Assembly: GCA_009693705.1 (NCBI GenBank)
Contig: SHWS01000007.1
Span: forward strand, 1 to 59,234
DNA from: Pelagibacteraceae bacterium
GTDB taxonomy: Bacteria; Pseudomonadota; Alphaproteobacteria; Pelagibacterales; Pelagibacteraceae
Direction: 5' to 3'
Length of the DNA stretch: 59,234 nucleotides
Positions 12,315 to 33,121 of this stretch are shown one piece after another. The number at the start of each line of letters is the position of its first letter. The stretch's first letter is position 1. A model generated the notes under the pieces. It was given only the letters and a program-made list of their open reading frames with translations. It was not told the origin of the DNA and searched no databases. A program made the translations under genes and the position numbers.

Positions 12315-13562
12315 ATGAAAATTGCAGTTATAGGGTCGGGAATTTCAGGATTAACTTCTGCATATTACTTATCAAAAAAACATAAAGTAGATTTATTTGA
12401 AAAGGAAGATCGTTTTGGAGGTCATTCTTATACACTTGATGTGGTTTATAAAAATAATCAAAAAGTCCAAGTTGATATAGGATTTATGGTTTTTAACAAA
12501 GATACTTATCCTAATTTAATTAATTTTTTTGAAGAAAACAATGTCCAGATTGAAAAAAGTGACATGTCTTTTTCAGTAACCGTTAAAGACACTAATATAG
12601 AATATTGTGGTAAGGGTCTCAGAGGTATTTTCTCTAACAAAAAAAATTTTTTTAATTTTAAGTTTGTTAAAATGTTTTTTGAAATAATAAGTTTTTATAA
12701 TCAATGTGAAAAAGTTCAAATAAAAAGTTTGTCTAAAGAAATGACGCTTGGTGAATATCTTAAGCAAATTAAAATCTCACAATATTTTATAAATTATCAT
12801 ATAATACCAATGGTTTCTGCTATCTGGTCTATGCCACCTTATGAAGCGTCAAATATGCCGTTAATTTTCTTCATAAGTTTTTTTAAAAATCATGGTTTAT
12901 TTAAATTAAGCAATAGGCCCCAATGGTTTACAGTTTCAAATAGAAGCAAAACTTATGTGGATAAAATTTTATCTAATCTTAGTGGAGAACATTATAAAAA
13001 CTATGAAATAAAAAAAATTATTAGAAATGATAATGGTGTAAAAGTTTATTATGGTTCTGAGAGTGAATTTTTTAATTACGACAAAGTAGTATTATCTACA
13101 CATGCAGATGAAACCTTAAAAATTATAGCGGATATATCAAATGAAGAAAAAGAAGTTCTTAGTAGTTTTAATTATAAAAAAAATATTGCTCTAGTACATT
13201 TTGATCAAACTGTAATGCCAAAAAATAAAAAAGCTTGGTGCTCATGGAACTCGTCCTTAAATTCAAAGAATCATCAACAATCATCAGTAACCTACTGGCT
13301 TAATCAATTACAAAATCTTAAGATTGATAGAAATATTTTTTTAACTATAAATCCTTTTTTTAAAATTGAGGACAATTTAGTTTATAAGAAAGTTGAGTTC
13401 ACGCACCCTTATTACGATGAAAATGCTTTAAAGAGTCAATCAAAACTATCTGGAATACAAAATAAAAAAAATACATTGTTTAGCGGAAGTTATTTTGGTT
13501 ACGGATTTCATGAAGATGGAATAAAATCATCAATCGAAATGCTTAAAACCTTAAATGATTAA
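12315..13562 (+). CDS. FAD-dependent amine-oxidase-like oxidoreductase (lipid-modification cluster)
   Basis: A 415-residue flavoprotein. The dinucleotide fold is at the N-terminus (IAVIGSGISGLTSAYYLSKK, GxGxxG at about residues 7-12) followed by an LFEKEDRFGGHS loop for the adenosine. The C-terminal FSGSYFGYGFHEDGIKSS stretch closes the flavin site. The family occurs beside DUF1365 and cyclopropane-fatty-acid synthase genes in many proteobacteria, as it does here (overlap of 8 bases with DUF1365). In Rhodobacter sphaeroides this gene set makes furan fatty acids with a desaturase (UfaD), a methylase (UfaM) and UfaO; I cannot say which one this gene matches, although a flavoprotein desaturase is plausible. 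Confidence 0.78.
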   Translation: MKIAVIGSGISGLTSAYYLSKKHKVDLFEKEDRFGGHSYTLDVVYKNNQKVQVDIGFMVFNKDTYPNLINFFEENNVQIEKSDMSFSVTVKDTNIEYCGKGLRGIFSNKKNFFNFKFVKMFFEIISFYNQCEKVQIKSLSKEMTLGEYLKQIKISQYFINYHIIPMVSAIWSMPPYEASNMPLIFFISFFKNHGLFKLSNRPQWFTVSNRSKTYVDKILSNLSGEHYKNYEIKKIIRNDNGVKVYYGSESEFFNYDKVVLSTHADETLKIIADISNEEKEVLSSFNYKKNIALVHFDQTVMPKNKKAWCSWNSSLNSKNHQQSSVTYWLNQLQNLKIDRNIFLTINPFFKIEDNLVYKKVEFTHPYYDENALKSQSKLSGIQNKKNTLFSGSYFGYGFHEDGIKSSIEMLKTLND

Positions 13563-14319
13563 ATCCTCTATTTATAGTGGAACGGTTATTCACAAAAGAT
13601 TTAAACCCAAAGTTCATTTTTTTAAATATAAAGTATTTTCACTATTAATCGATTTATCAGAATTAGAAATCTTGGATAATAAAATAAAATTTTTTTCTTT
13701 TAATAAATTTAATTTAATTAGTTTTTTTGAAAAAGATCACGGAAAGAGAGACGGATCATCTTTAGTTAATTGGGTGTATGAGCATTTAAAAAAAAATAAT
13801 ATCAAAACAGAAAATATTAAAATAAAACTCTTATGTTATCCAAGAATACTAGGCTATGTATTTAATCCATTAAGTGTTTTTTACATATATGATTTAAACG
13901 AACAGTTAATATCAATCTTGTATGAAGTTAAAAACACACACGGTGAACAGCATACTTATATTTTTAAAAACACTAATAATGAAAATTTATTGCAGCACAA
14001 TTGTTCAAAAAAATTATATGTATCTCCTTTCATGGAAATGGACTGTAATTATCTTTTTAAAATCTTGAAACCTGCTGATAAAATTTCGGTAATAATTGAT
14101 CAATATGATCAATACGGTAAAATATTATACGCATCACAAGATGGTCAAAGAGTCGATTTTTCAAGTAAAGAAATAATTAAAGCTTATTTATCTCATCCAT
14201 TAATGACATTTAAGATAATTGCTGCAATACATTATGAAGCATTTAAATTATGGTTAAAAGGAATAAAAATTGTTAAGAAAAAAATTAAAATATTTAATAG
14301 CGAATCAATCGAAAATTAA
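13555..14319 (+). CDS. DUF1365 family protein
   Basis: A 254-residue DUF1365 protein, recognised by the opening SSIYSGTVIHKRFKPKVHFFKYK and the LCYPRILGYVFNPLSVFYIYD segment near residue 95-117, which are the family's conserved parts. The function is not known biochemically to me. It nearly always lies between an FAD oxidoreductase and a cyclopropane-fatty-acid-synthase-like methyltransferase, and here it overlaps the former by 8 bases and the latter by one. A role in modifying membrane fatty acyl chains is therefore inferred. The protein is very basic and has no clear membrane helices. Confidence 0.85.
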   Translation: MIKSSIYSGTVIHKRFKPKVHFFKYKVFSLLIDLSELEILDNKIKFFSFNKFNLISFFEKDHGKRDGSSLVNWVYEHLKKNNIKTENIKIKLLCYPRILGYVFNPLSVFYIYDLNEQLISILYEVKNTHGEQHTYIFKNTNNENLLQHNCSKKLYVSPFMEMDCNYLFKILKPADKISVIIDQYDQYGKILYASQDGQRVDFSSKEIIKAYLSHPLMTFKIIAAIHYEAFKLWLKGIKIVKKKIKIFNSESIEN

Positions 14320-15497
14320 TGTTCTTATATAATCTAGCTGACAAAATAGTATTTTATCTTTTGAAAAATATTCAATATGGATATTTAGAAGTTGTTACTT
14401 TTAAAGGTGATCTTTTAAAGTTTGGTGACTCAGAAAGTTTTCATAAAGCCTTTATTACAATTAAATCTCCAAATTTAACTTTTAAATTAATTAAAGGTGG
14501 AGATATAGCTTTTGCTGAATGTTATATGAAAGGTGAATTTGAGACGAATAACCTTTCCGATTTAATTGAATTAATGGCAAAAAATATAAATATTGTAAAT
14601 AAATTTAGTTATCTTTTCGATTTTCATTTAATAAATTTTTTAAAAAATAAATTTATTAAAAATACAAAAAATCGTAGCAAAAAAAATATTGCTAAACATT
14701 ATGATTTGGGAAATGAATTCTTTTCATTATGGTTAGATGAAACCCTGACTTATTCTAGTGCTATATTTGATGATAATTCAAAAGAACTATCAAAAGCTCA
14801 AAATAACAAGTATCAAAAATTAATAGATTTAATTAAACCTGGTGAAGGAGATAAAATTCTTGAAATTGGTTGTGGCTGGGGAGGTTTTGCCGAGTATTTG
14901 GGAAAAAATTACAACGTAAAACTTGATTGCATTACTATCTCTCAAAAGCAATTCGAATTTGCTAAAAATAGAATTTATAAGTGCGGTTTAAATGAAAAAG
15001 TAAATATAGAAATTAAAGATTATCGAGATCTAAAAAGCAAATACAATTCAATTGCATCAATAGAAATGATAGAAGCGGTTGGTCAAAATTACTTAGATAG
15101 TTATTTTAATGTAATTAAAAAAAATTTATTTGACGGAGGTGTTGCGGCCATTCAGGCTATCACGATAAATGATAGCTTGTACGAACGATATAAAAATAAA
15201 CAAGATTTTATTCGAAAATACATTTTCCCTGGCGGTTTTCTGCCATCAATAGGTAGTTTGCAAAAATTTGCCGCGAAAAATAATCTTATTTTTAATTCAT
15301 ATAGTTCTTACGCGGATCATTATTCTAGTACTTTATCAATTTGGAGAGACACTTTTTTAAGGAAATGGGATTTGATAAAAAAACAAGGATTTGATTTAAA
15401 CTTTAAAAGAATGTGGGAATTTTATCTTTCCTACTGTGAGGCAGGCTTTAAATCAAAGAATATTGATTTGATTCAATTCTCACTTCAAAACAAATAG
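14319..15497 (+). CDS. cfa: Cyclopropane-fatty-acyl-phospholipid synthase family methyltransferase
   Basis: SAM-dependent enzyme of 392 residues acting on unsaturated acyl chains of membrane phospholipids. The Cfa-specific segment HYDLGNEFFSLWLDETLTYS is at about 127-146 and the SAM-binding motif ILEIGCGWGGF at about 180-190. An N-terminal lipid-binding domain precedes it (about 20-110). In this gene setting the homologous enzyme may transfer a simple methyl group to a vaccenyl chain (UfaM-like) instead of forming a cyclopropane ring; the sequence does not settle this. It overlaps DUF1365 by one base, and the downstream DUF3833 gene can start at its stop codon. Confidence 0.85.
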   Translation: MFLYNLADKIVFYLLKNIQYGYLEVVTFKGDLLKFGDSESFHKAFITIKSPNLTFKLIKGGDIAFAECYMKGEFETNNLSDLIELMAKNINIVNKFSYLFDFHLINFLKNKFIKNTKNRSKKNIAKHYDLGNEFFSLWLDETLTYSSAIFDDNSKELSKAQNNKYQKLIDLIKPGEGDKILEIGCGWGGFAEYLGKNYNVKLDCITISQKQFEFAKNRIYKCGLNEKVNIEIKDYRDLKSKYNSIASIEMIEAVGQNYLDSYFNVIKKNLFDGGVAAIQAITINDSLYERYKNKQDFIRKYIFPGGFLPSIGSLQKFAAKNNLIFNSYSSYADHYSSTLSIWRDTFLRKWDLIKKQGFDLNFKRMWEFYLSYCEAGFKSKNIDLIQFSLQNK

Positions 15498-15514
15498 TGT
15501 ATCAATTAAACCAT

Positions 15515-16063
15515 ATGCTTAAATTAAAACTAATTAGATCAATTTTATTGATAGTTTCTATATTCTTAATTACAAGCTGTTCAAAAAATAGTGCTATGAA
15601 ACCAGAAGATTTTAAAAACAAAAAACCAAGATTAATTATTGAAAACTATTTATCTGGCAATATTAAAGCCTGGGGAATACTTCAAAATAGATCTGGTAAA
15701 GTGACAAGACAATTTTCAGCAGATTTAAATGGAAAGTGGGATGGCAACCAACTAACTTTAGATGAAAAATTTAACTGGGATGATGGTGAAATTCAAACAA
15801 GACAGTGGCAAATTAATAAAATTGATGAAAACAATTACGAAGGAACAGCTGGAGATGTTGTCGGCAAGGCAAAAGGGTATTCTTACGGTCCGGCTTTTAA
15901 ATTTGAATATGTTTTGTTAGTTCCGATTAAAGGCAAAGAAATCAAAATTACTTTTGATGATTGGATATTTATGCAAGATGAAAAAGTTGCAATTAATCGT
16001 GCTACGATGACTAAGTTTGGAATAAAAGTTGCTGAATTAACAGTCTTTTTTATTAAGAATTAA
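15515..16063 (+). CDS. DUF3833 family lipoprotein
   Basis: A predicted lipoprotein: positively charged start, hydrophobic core, and LITSCSKN lipobox whose Cys would be lipidated. The remaining 155 residues match the DUF3833 pattern (NGKWDGNQLTLDEKFNWDDG, YSYGPAFKFEY, DDWIFMQD). I chose ATG 15515; a GTG at 15497, overlapping the cfa stop by one base, is an alternative that adds six residues. DUF3833 genes are typical members of the FAD oxidoreductase-DUF1365-Cfa cluster. A lipocalin-like envelope role has been suggested by the fold type, but I know of no tested function. Confidence 0.8.
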   Translation: MLKLKLIRSILLIVSIFLITSCSKNSAMKPEDFKNKKPRLIIENYLSGNIKAWGILQNRSGKVTRQFSADLNGKWDGNQLTLDEKFNWDDGEIQTRQWQINKIDENNYEGTAGDVVGKAKGYSYGPAFKFEYVLLVPIKGKEIKITFDDWIFMQDEKVAINRATMTKFGIKVAELTVFFIKN

Positions 16064-16070
16064 CTTTTTC

Positions 16071-16820
16071 CTAATATTTTGTAAGTAATTTAATTAATCT
16101 AAAGTAAATTATACTTGGTAAAAAACTTAGAAGCTTCAGTGTTAGTGTTAATTGTTTAGGAAAATGAATTTCAAATACTTTTTTATTAATTAATCCATCA
16201 TAAATCTTATTTGCTGCATATTCTGGTGTTTTCAAAAAAGGCATTTTAAAGTTATTTTTATCTGTCATTGGAGTTTTTATAAATCCTGGTGAGACTAAGC
16301 AAATGCGAACGTTGTATTTTTTAAAATTCAAATACAAGCTTTCCGCTAAATTATTTAATGCAGACTTTGATGGACCATAACCGGTGGAGTTTGGTAATCC
16401 TCTATAGCCAGCAACCGAAGAAACAATTGCTATAGTACCTTTTTTTTTATTTTTAAAATACTCTTCAACTGATTTGATGCTATTTAAAGTTCCAAAAAAA
16501 TTCACTTTAAATACCTCTTCAATTCGCTCTAAATCTATATATTCCTCTTTTTTGGGATCCCAGGTGCCTGTTGAAAAGAAACATATGTCAATATCTTGAT
16601 ATTTATTTTTTATTTGCTGAAAAACTTCTGCACATTTTAATTTATTTGTAACATCGAGTGGAAATCCATTTATATTTTCATATTTTTGTGACATTTCATT
16701 TAGAAGAGCTTCTGTTCTAGCTGAAATTGCTACATTCCAACCTTCATTTGCAAATTTAATTGCTAATGCTTTACCAATGCCAGTGCTTCCACCAGTTATC
16801 CAAATAGTTTTTTTATTCAT
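16071..16820 (-). CDS. Short-chain dehydrogenase/reductase (SDR)
   Basis: A 249-residue classical SDR. The cofactor motif is TGGSTGIGKAL near residues 8-18. Ser and Tyr-x-x-x-Lys are in IAVIVSSVAG-like and GYGPSKSALN segments (the tyrosine is in TGYGPSK). The C-terminus has a hydrophobic tail (LTLKLLSFLPSIIYFRLI) that could sit on the membrane. It converges with the DUF3833 gene (7-base gap) and diverges from tspO with almost no space. SDR genes are common in this lipid-modification cluster elsewhere, so a fatty-acyl or lipid-derived substrate is possible, but it is not shown. Confidence 0.82.
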   Translation of the reverse strand: MNKKTIWITGGSTGIGKALAIKFANEGWNVAISARTEALLNEMSQKYENINGFPLDVTNKLKCAEVFQQIKNKYQDIDICFFSTGTWDPKKEEYIDLERIEEVFKVNFFGTLNSIKSVEEYFKNKKKGTIAIVSSVAGYRGLPNSTGYGPSKSALNNLAESLYLNFKKYNVRICLVSPGFIKTPMTDKNNFKMPFLKTPEYAANKIYDGLINKKVFEIHFPKQLTLTLKLLSFLPSIIYFRLIKLLTKY

Positions 16821-31554: not shown

Positions 31555-31778
31555 TTTGGATTTTTTTTTATAAATTCTATATATTTTACTACTTCATCAA
31601 ATTTTTCATCGGGAATGTCTTTGTAACTAGCATTAAATTTTTCTTTAACGCATATAGCAACATGGGCATAGGGGTTACGACCTTTTGGATGATTTGGATG
31701 ATCTGGTAACTGACCTTGCAAATAATCACCAGCTTCCTGAATTAATTTCCAGAGTTTGCTTGCGTTTTCTTTATTCAC
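31551..31778 (-). CDS. Small conserved-looking protein, ORF6C-like C-terminus
   Basis: A 75-residue protein of unknown function. It has no signal peptide or membrane segment and is mixed in charge. The second half (YAHVAICVKEKFNASYKDIP, then a short helix) resembles the ORF6C/Kil-like helical segment found at the end of some phage regulators ('..FGVSSYKDIP...'), but no N-terminal DNA-binding domain is present. It overlaps the MOSC gene by four bases tail to tail, and codon use looks normal for this genome. It may be a true small gene; the function is unassigned. Confidence 0.6.
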   Translation of the reverse strand: MNKENASKLWKLIQEAGDYLQGQLPDHPNHPKGRNPYAHVAICVKEKFNASYKDIPDEKFDEVVKYIEFIKKNPN

Positions 31779-31972
31779 GACACCTAATAACTTGATTTAT
31801 TTTTAAATCCTCTAGTTTTTATCTAGTTTACACCAGATAAATATTGATTTCACTAATTAAAATAAAAGTTTAGAGAAACTAAAAGTTTATATTTCTTGTG
31901 AACAAAAGAAAAAAAAAGATATAAAACTTGTTAAATAAAGTTTTTTTCAGACTTGCAACAATTTATTAAACT

Positions 31973-33121
31973 ATGAGCATGAGAACGGAGGCCTTTGAAC
32001 ATCTTAATAATTTTTCTGAAAATTATTTAAGTAAATACTCAAGTGATAGAAATTTTGATTTTGGTAAAGACAACAGAACAAATACTAGTTGTTTATCCAA
32101 ATACCTAACTCACCGGGTTATTGATGAGTTAGAGGTGATAAAATCTGCCCATTCTAAATACTCCTATTTAACTATTGAAAAATTTATCCAGGAAGTATTT
32201 TGGCGTACCTACTGGAAGGGTTGGTTAGAATTAAGACCAAGGGTTTGGAAAGCATACCGAGAAGACTTAGTCAAATTAGAGGAATATAAAAAAAATATTA
32301 ATTACCAAAATTCAATTAATGCAAAAACAACTGTTGAATGCTTTAATGATTGGGCACAAGAGTTAAAAGAGACAGGATATTTGCATAATCATGCACGAAT
32401 GTGGTTTGCAAGTATTTGGATTTTCACTCTAAAACTTCCTTGGCAATTAGGGGCTGATTTTTTTCTAAAACATTTACTGGATGGTGATGCTGCCTCAAAT
32501 ACTTTAAGTTGGCGTTGGGTTGCGGGACTTCAAACAAAAGGCAAGCATTACCTTGCAACTAGTTGGAATATTAATAAATTTTCAGCTAAAAAATATAACA
32601 ATTTAAAATTAAATGAAAACACAAGTCCAATATTTGAAAGTGAAAATTTTACCCAAGTTCCCATTCACTTTGATAACCTAGTTAATGAAAATTCTTTATT
32701 CTTAATACACAATTTAGATAGTTGCTATTTATTAAAACATAAACAAAAAACTTTTAACAATTACGGTCTATTTGATTTTAATGATGTTTTAGATAAAGAA
32801 AATTATTCAAAAAACGTATTAGATTTTAAAGCAAAAATAAATTTAGAAATTTTAGAACAAATAAAAAGTGACTTTGGTGCTAATATGATTTTAAAAAATT
32901 CTGATGATCTTTTTAAAGTTATTAAAGAGAAAAAAATTGAACACGTGATTATGCCGTATCTTACTTGTGGTTATGAAAATGATTTCATCAGTCAATTAAA
33001 AGATAAGGTTAAAATTTGCTATTTAGCAAGGGATTATGATCAATTTTGTTTTCCTTTTTCAACCAAGGGTTTTTTTGGCTTTAAAGATCAAATTCATAAA
33101 ATTCTAACAAAATTTTTATAA
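31973..33121 (+). CDS. Photolyase/cryptochrome-related FAD-binding protein with apparent swapped domain order
   Basis: A 382-residue protein. Residues about 20-200 match the helical FAD-binding half of photolyases and cryptochromes: FIQEVFWRTYWKGWLE, YLHNHARMWFAS, WQLGADFFLKHLLDGDAA and SWRWVAGLQTKG (the W/RW..G..T segment). In standard photolyases this half is C-terminal, after an alpha/beta antenna domain. Here it comes first, and residues about 225-382 follow with strand-helix alternation (SLFLIHNL, NMILKN, IEHVIMPYL, VKICYLAR) ending in YDQFCFPFSTKGFFGFKDQI, which looks like the end of that antenna domain. DNA-repair activity is uncertain. A promoter is not obvious; the gap upstream is 194 bases. 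Confidence 0.72.
   Translation: MSMRTEAFEHLNNFSENYLSKYSSDRNFDFGKDNRTNTSCLSKYLTHRVIDELEVIKSAHSKYSYLTIEKFIQEVFWRTYWKGWLELRPRVWKAYREDLVKLEEYKKNINYQNSINAKTTVECFNDWAQELKETGYLHNHARMWFASIWIFTLKLPWQLGADFFLKHLLDGDAASNTLSWRWVAGLQTKGKHYLATSWNINKFSAKKYNNLKLNENTSPIFESENFTQVPIHFDNLVNENSLFLIHNLDSCYLLKHKQKTFNNYGLFDFNDVLDKENYSKNVLDFKAKINLEILEQIKSDFGANMILKNSDDLFKVIKEKKIEHVIMPYLTCGYENDFISQLKDKVKICYLARDYDQFCFPFSTKGFFGFKDQIHKILTKFL

Follow-up and report, generated by a model that had tools for sequence, protein, structure and literature searches.

A SAR11 photolyase of inverted domain order, with a C-terminal domain that is probably a diverged antenna

The window, by which we mean the entire 59,234 nucleotides analysed, contains an open reading frame of 382 codons plus stop at positions 31973–33121 of the plus strand. 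From its Pfam FAD_binding_7 match, full-length relatives and a confident structural model, this almost certainly encodes a photolyase (P0001) of the published NewPHL/SPL class, in which the usual order of the domains is inverted. The ATG start agrees with those of the closest relatives in the alignment. The Pfam match covers residues 71–199 (profile positions 1–131 of 203, E 7.3e-17), and the alignments with NCBIfam models and PDB sequences begin at the earliest at residues 4–7, set against positions ~205–230 of ordinary photolyases, past the antenna domain. This onset identifies the first half as the catalytic domain. The preliminary description, made from the raw sequence, had put a photolyase FAD half first, at residues ~20–200, and the domain is indeed found there, with limits of ~3–205.

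The AlphaFold model of the protein, calculated with an alignment of 35 relatives, has pLDDT 95.2 and pTM 0.92. It has an all-helical FAD/catalytic domain (residues ~1–205, 31973–32587), to which other photolyases align from their residue ~205–210 onward, then a linker that lacks regular secondary structure by DSSP (residues ~206–239, 32588–32689), and finally an alpha/beta domain that we call Z and regard as probably a diverged antenna domain (residues ~240–382, 32690–33118), all on the plus strand. As had been anticipated for the second half, strands and helices alternate in Z, with strands at 241–245, 263–267, 305–307, 324–328 and 348–351, and helices at 280–301, 310–320, 334–342 and 354–362. 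The C-terminus FCFPFSTKGFFGFK includes the motif GFFGFK (residues 366–371, 33068–33085, plus strand), of which G366 and F368 are found in all 79 aligned relatives, F367 in 75, K371 in 73 and F370 in 71. When the whole-protein model was compared with the PDB by Foldseek, FAD domains alone were matched; the long alignments with PhrB structures had an rmsd of ~20 Å and are meaningless.

The NewPHL FAD domain aligns with that of class I photolyases over 180 columns in a profile–profile comparison (probability 99.9%, P 2.9e-32). The catalytic and FAD-binding box, YLHNHARMW...WQLGAD...DGDAASNTLSWRW (residues 136–182, 32378–32518, plus strand), contains N139, M143, W157, D170, D172, N176, W180 and W182, each invariant in 79/79 relatives. 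Aligned with the A. nidulans photolyase, these residues are equivalent to N349, M353, W367, D380, D382, N386, W390 and W392, respectively. The roles of these positions are well established for class I photolyases. The residues contacting the cyclobutane pyrimidine dimer (CPD), E74, W77, N139, M143 and W182, are invariant in the same 79 relatives, as are D170, D172 and R142, which bind FAD, and N176, the asparagine close to the flavin N5. W280, an FAD residue in A. nidulans, is replaced by F71 here, and R350 by H140. The HMMER register had slipped around T240–S244, where the profile alignment places S39, L41 and S42. The list of FAD residues was taken from PMC9426592, and the N5-proximal asparagine is conserved in NewPHL/SPL proteins (PMC12083526). 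Of the tryptophan triad, for which the preliminary description had proposed a check, only W180 and W157 are present, in all 79 relatives; the third position is E104 here and mostly E, D, N or Q elsewhere. A tryptophan dyad is also found in the NewPHL of Dinoroseobacter shibae (PMC8948257). The FAD domain does not end in FeS-cluster cysteines, and C123 is the one widely shared cysteine of the 79-relative alignment. As read from these residues, the active site is that of a repair enzyme.

The protein is not an oddity: it belongs to a known class, is well conserved and was correctly spotted from the raw sequence. A search of genome contigs confirmed at least 575 relatives with the same colinear order, far more than chance could produce, in SAR11, Rhodobacteraceae/Roseobacteraceae, SAR116, SAR86, Sphingomonadales and single genomes of Verrucomicrobiia and Microbacterium. 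The gene is present in 89 of 147 genomes of its own family (47 of the 54 of good quality), and in 13/299 of a phylum-wide sample; it is a near-core photorepair gene of the abundant SAR11 bacteria. No carriage was confirmed in viral contigs, and BFVD gave no full-length match. Apparently broken copies occur in single-cell or draft genomes, with frame disruptions at two loci (L033 and L038) and an in-frame TGA at a third (G162:C7:27172-28083).

In a tree of FAD domains the NewPHL proteins form one clade (support 100/100) that includes those of Rhodobacteraceae and Roseobacteraceae, class I stands apart (100/100) and genes encoding a FAD domain only lie between; D. shibae A8LJA9 and M. mesophilicum M7YZC8 are not in this tree. 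The PhrB row from one locus (L057) was an artefact in a first version, with a branch length of 10, and the tree was therefore rebuilt without PhrB rows. The nearest relatives are metagenome-assembled genomes (MAGs) of lake and other SAR11, at 86, 79, 76, 59 and 52% identity. The closest of these, from a lake MAG (L001), has the same flanking genes as the window. Four copies from the genus itself (L114–L117) are only 45–47% identical to that of the window, and this disparity suggests that the window gene arrived by replacement or horizontal transfer.

Flanking the window gene are a gene for a MOSC-domain protein and one for an SDR on the other strand. In four lake SAR11 loci (L002–L005) a histone-deacetylase-like gene overlaps the NewPHL start by ~11 nt; the window lacks this gene and has a gap of 418 bases at that place. 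The interval that precedes the NewPHL gene contains an ORF of ~75 residues without a Pfam match (31560–31787, minus strand). Neighbours vary with the clade. Most marine SAR11 loci have a PhrB-type photolyase gene within ~5 kb, lake SAR11 have the histone-deacetylase-like gene or SOD, and a Rhodobacteraceae locus (L042) has clpX/clpP, with neighbours of the same size in several other loci. Because of this variation we do not claim a conserved partner gene or a functional operon. Elsewhere in the window (12315–16820) a gene for a FAD-containing amine oxidoreductase-like protein heads a possible photo-oxidative stress cluster, whose following genes we take to be DUF1365, cyclopropane-fatty-acid-synthase-like, DUF3833-like and SDR genes; in one locus (L032) a homologous cluster stands directly beside NewPHL and PhrB.

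Besides P0001, the genome itself encodes two further FAD_binding_7 proteins, three in all: a photolyase of canonical order whose N-terminal antenna domain is complete (L081/L113), and a PhrB-type enzyme (L083). No DASH photolyase was found in it. In an alignment that is not rigorous, the PhrB-type protein (L083:586-2076, G000:C45) seems to lack the usual FeS-cluster CxxC (DFKKGDWC), like a cluster-less subgroup.

What is the origin of Z? Modelled alone, residues 218–382 fold with pLDDT 88 and pTM 0.79. Foldseek matches this model to HUP-type Rossmannoid folds at E 0.01–0.2, with none at E ≤ 0.001. The lowest E-values belong to phosphopantetheine adenylyltransferases; the best query TM-scores among the 50 matches listed (0.51–0.59) belong to photolyases, at E ~0.1 and with the aligned part of the photolyase unspecified. 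When the profile of Z is compared directly with those of canonical antenna domains, the match falls short of significance (P 0.02–0.03, with a score attained in 2 of 200 column shuffles), and a Pfam scan of 35 Z-domains gave nothing consistent and no PF00875 match. A match between NewPHL positions 242–326 and the antenna of another locus (L141), seemingly direct proof, was dropped because the domain by itself scored –1.9 bits.

Photolyases in which the two parts are separate genes bear on this question. A NewPHL profile search of 385 genomes of the bacterial class revealed a distinct intermediate group, with E-values of about 1e-41 to 1e-52, that matched in the FAD part only, where the reading frame ends. 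Each of the ten FAD-only members has a frame of ~130–155 residues just downstream, eight of which read out as separate ORFs, and a profile of the small ORF found 11 of the 385 genomes, 10 of them exactly those with FAD-only genes. The split photolyases share the NewPHL gene order, FAD part and then alpha/beta part, and in some alphaproteobacterial families the FAD gene and the antenna gene still stand side by side, unfused. The antenna-like ORF, of 131–153 residues, directly follows or overlaps the NewPHL-like FAD-domain gene (L131, L133–L139, and also L132 and L140; for example L137:2259-3594). These ORFs gave no Pfam match where scanned. Three of the split photolyases (L132, L135 and L140) have a C-terminal cysteine-rich motif of FeS type; that of L140 contains the cysteine stretch RFCRVCPHYGRCPF, and P0001 has no such cysteines.

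The small Phr5-like ORFs provide a bridge. Over 132 columns their profile matches canonical antenna domains with P 1.6e-8. It also matches Z, over 125 colinear columns, with P 4.8e-5; none of 200 shuffles reached the score of 32.9, the highest being 23.6. In a ranking of 33 gene families drawn from the loci retrieved, the top two places went to the two NewPHL families, with the alignments falling in the Z region. The profile probabilities are 44–68%, part of the similarity may be that of alpha/beta folds in general, and the null of 33 families is small. The conserved end of the Phr5-like ORF, RFFrYWNKakK, is aligned with GFFgFKdqIhKI, the very stretch singled out in the preliminary description. 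Since the Phr5-like ORFs match both canonical antennae and Z, the latter is probably a diverged antenna domain. The alternative is that Z is an unrelated alpha/beta domain that was recruited independently, its inverted appearance being coincidental; this competes with the antenna origin alone, and is compatible with membership of NewPHL. The weak direct match to antenna profiles, the adenylyltransferases heading the Foldseek matches by E-value and the lack of a Pfam match are all in its favour. Against it stand the colinear bridge, the top two places among the 33 families and the recurrence of the same gene order in split form, and we consider it unlikely. We think it rather probable that Z is a degenerate antenna, within a superfamily that passed through a split stage of adjacent FAD and antenna genes and became fused in both orders. 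The circular permutation put forward in the preliminary description is thus largely, though not decisively, supported. The order is inverted and Z is probably antenna-derived; a strict genetic permutation is not required, as gene fission and refusion fit at least equally well. If the antenna origin and the split stage are correct, NewPHL would be an order-permuted sister of the ordinary photolyases, and not an ancestral form that lacked an antenna. The bridge bears on whether the NewPHL antenna was ancestrally absent, as has been argued for SPLs, or has diverged and been relocated.

How might the enzyme work? FAD would be held by the N-terminal domain in the usual photolyase pocket. On excitation by blue or UV-A light the reduced flavin would pass an electron to a flipped-in cyclobutane pyrimidine dimer, which would split and return the electron; oxidised FAD would be photoactivated through the dyad of W180 and W157, in place of a triad. 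Z may pack on the FAD domain, replacing the missing PF03441 positions 132–203 and shielding the cofactor. Presumably it closes the pocket in place of the part of the FAD domain that is lacking (131 of 203 Pfam positions are present); in the class as described by Emmerich et al. in 2020, the second domain reportedly seals the FAD site. By analogy with the class the preferred substrate would be damaged single-stranded DNA, from which it would follow that the enzyme fills the niche of a DASH photolyase beside the canonical-order and PhrB-type enzymes.

Repair remains the best reading of the sequence. The preliminary description had raised a light sensor as one possibility. Such a protein, like a cryptochrome, would retain flavin chemistry for signalling and have lost repair, and the short alpha/beta domain and the lost third tryptophan could indeed change the photochemistry. 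Against this, every CPD contact tested is invariant in the 79 relatives, the loci examined show neither a fused nor a consistently adjacent signalling partner or output domain, and PMC13274461 and PMC9426592 report that the class repairs CPDs in single-stranded DNA. A sensor is therefore highly improbable. Still harder to credit is a degenerate or non-functional remnant, a reading to which the two frame-disrupted single-cell relatives and the copy with the in-frame TGA lend themselves; the window ORF is intact, its active site invariant, and the gene is kept by 47 of the 54 good-quality genomes of the family. The preferred reading thus remains a repair photolyase.

The NewPHL class of Emmerich et al. 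(2020) is described in PMC13274461 and PMC9426592 by CPD repair in single-stranded DNA, inverted topology and a Z-domain. P0001 agrees with it in its N-terminal FAD domain and C-terminal second domain, in the short Z of ~140 residues of alpha/beta structure instead of a standard antenna domain, in the dyad with the conserved N176, and in the bacterial groups concerned; the colinear full-length relatives include Rhodobacteraceae/Roseobacteraceae, the group of the NewPHL type member. No difference was found, the comparison being with the published traits of the class. Within the class P0001 belongs to a lake-SAR11 branch. NewPHL/SPL photolyases were described by Emmerich et al. 2020 (NAR, doi 10.1093/nar/gkaa1147) and Xu et al. 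2021, and include Phr7 of Prochlorococcus.

The Phr4/Phr5 and Phr6 proteins of marine Synechococcus/Cyanobium (PMC9426592) similarly have the FAD part first and the photolyase alpha/beta part second, but Phr4 and Phr6 bear FeS cysteines, and their parts are either split or joined in another way. Class I CPD photolyases (A. nidulans 1owl, E. coli 1dnp) share the FAD pocket, the CPD contacts and the proximal and middle tryptophans, and differ in their reverse domain order, with a full N-terminal antenna, in the third tryptophan and in having an FAD domain whose C-terminal part is complete. The match of P0001 starts at its residue 4–7, set against profile residue ~205–216. DASH photolyases/cryptochromes have a reported single-strand specificity like that of NewPHL; they have the canonical order and match less well in sequence than class I (49.1 bits for P0001 with the NCBIfam DASH model, cut-off 317 bits). 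The PhrB/FeS-BCP prokaryotic (6-4) photolyases, often neighbours of NewPHL in SAR11, are a separate clade of canonical order with a DPRP antenna domain. The FAD half is thus not always C-terminal, as the preliminary description had assumed; reports of photolyases with the inverted order date from 2020 and 2022, so the order itself is not new. The class has been known since 2020, and what is added here is evidence for its second half being a worn-down antenna.
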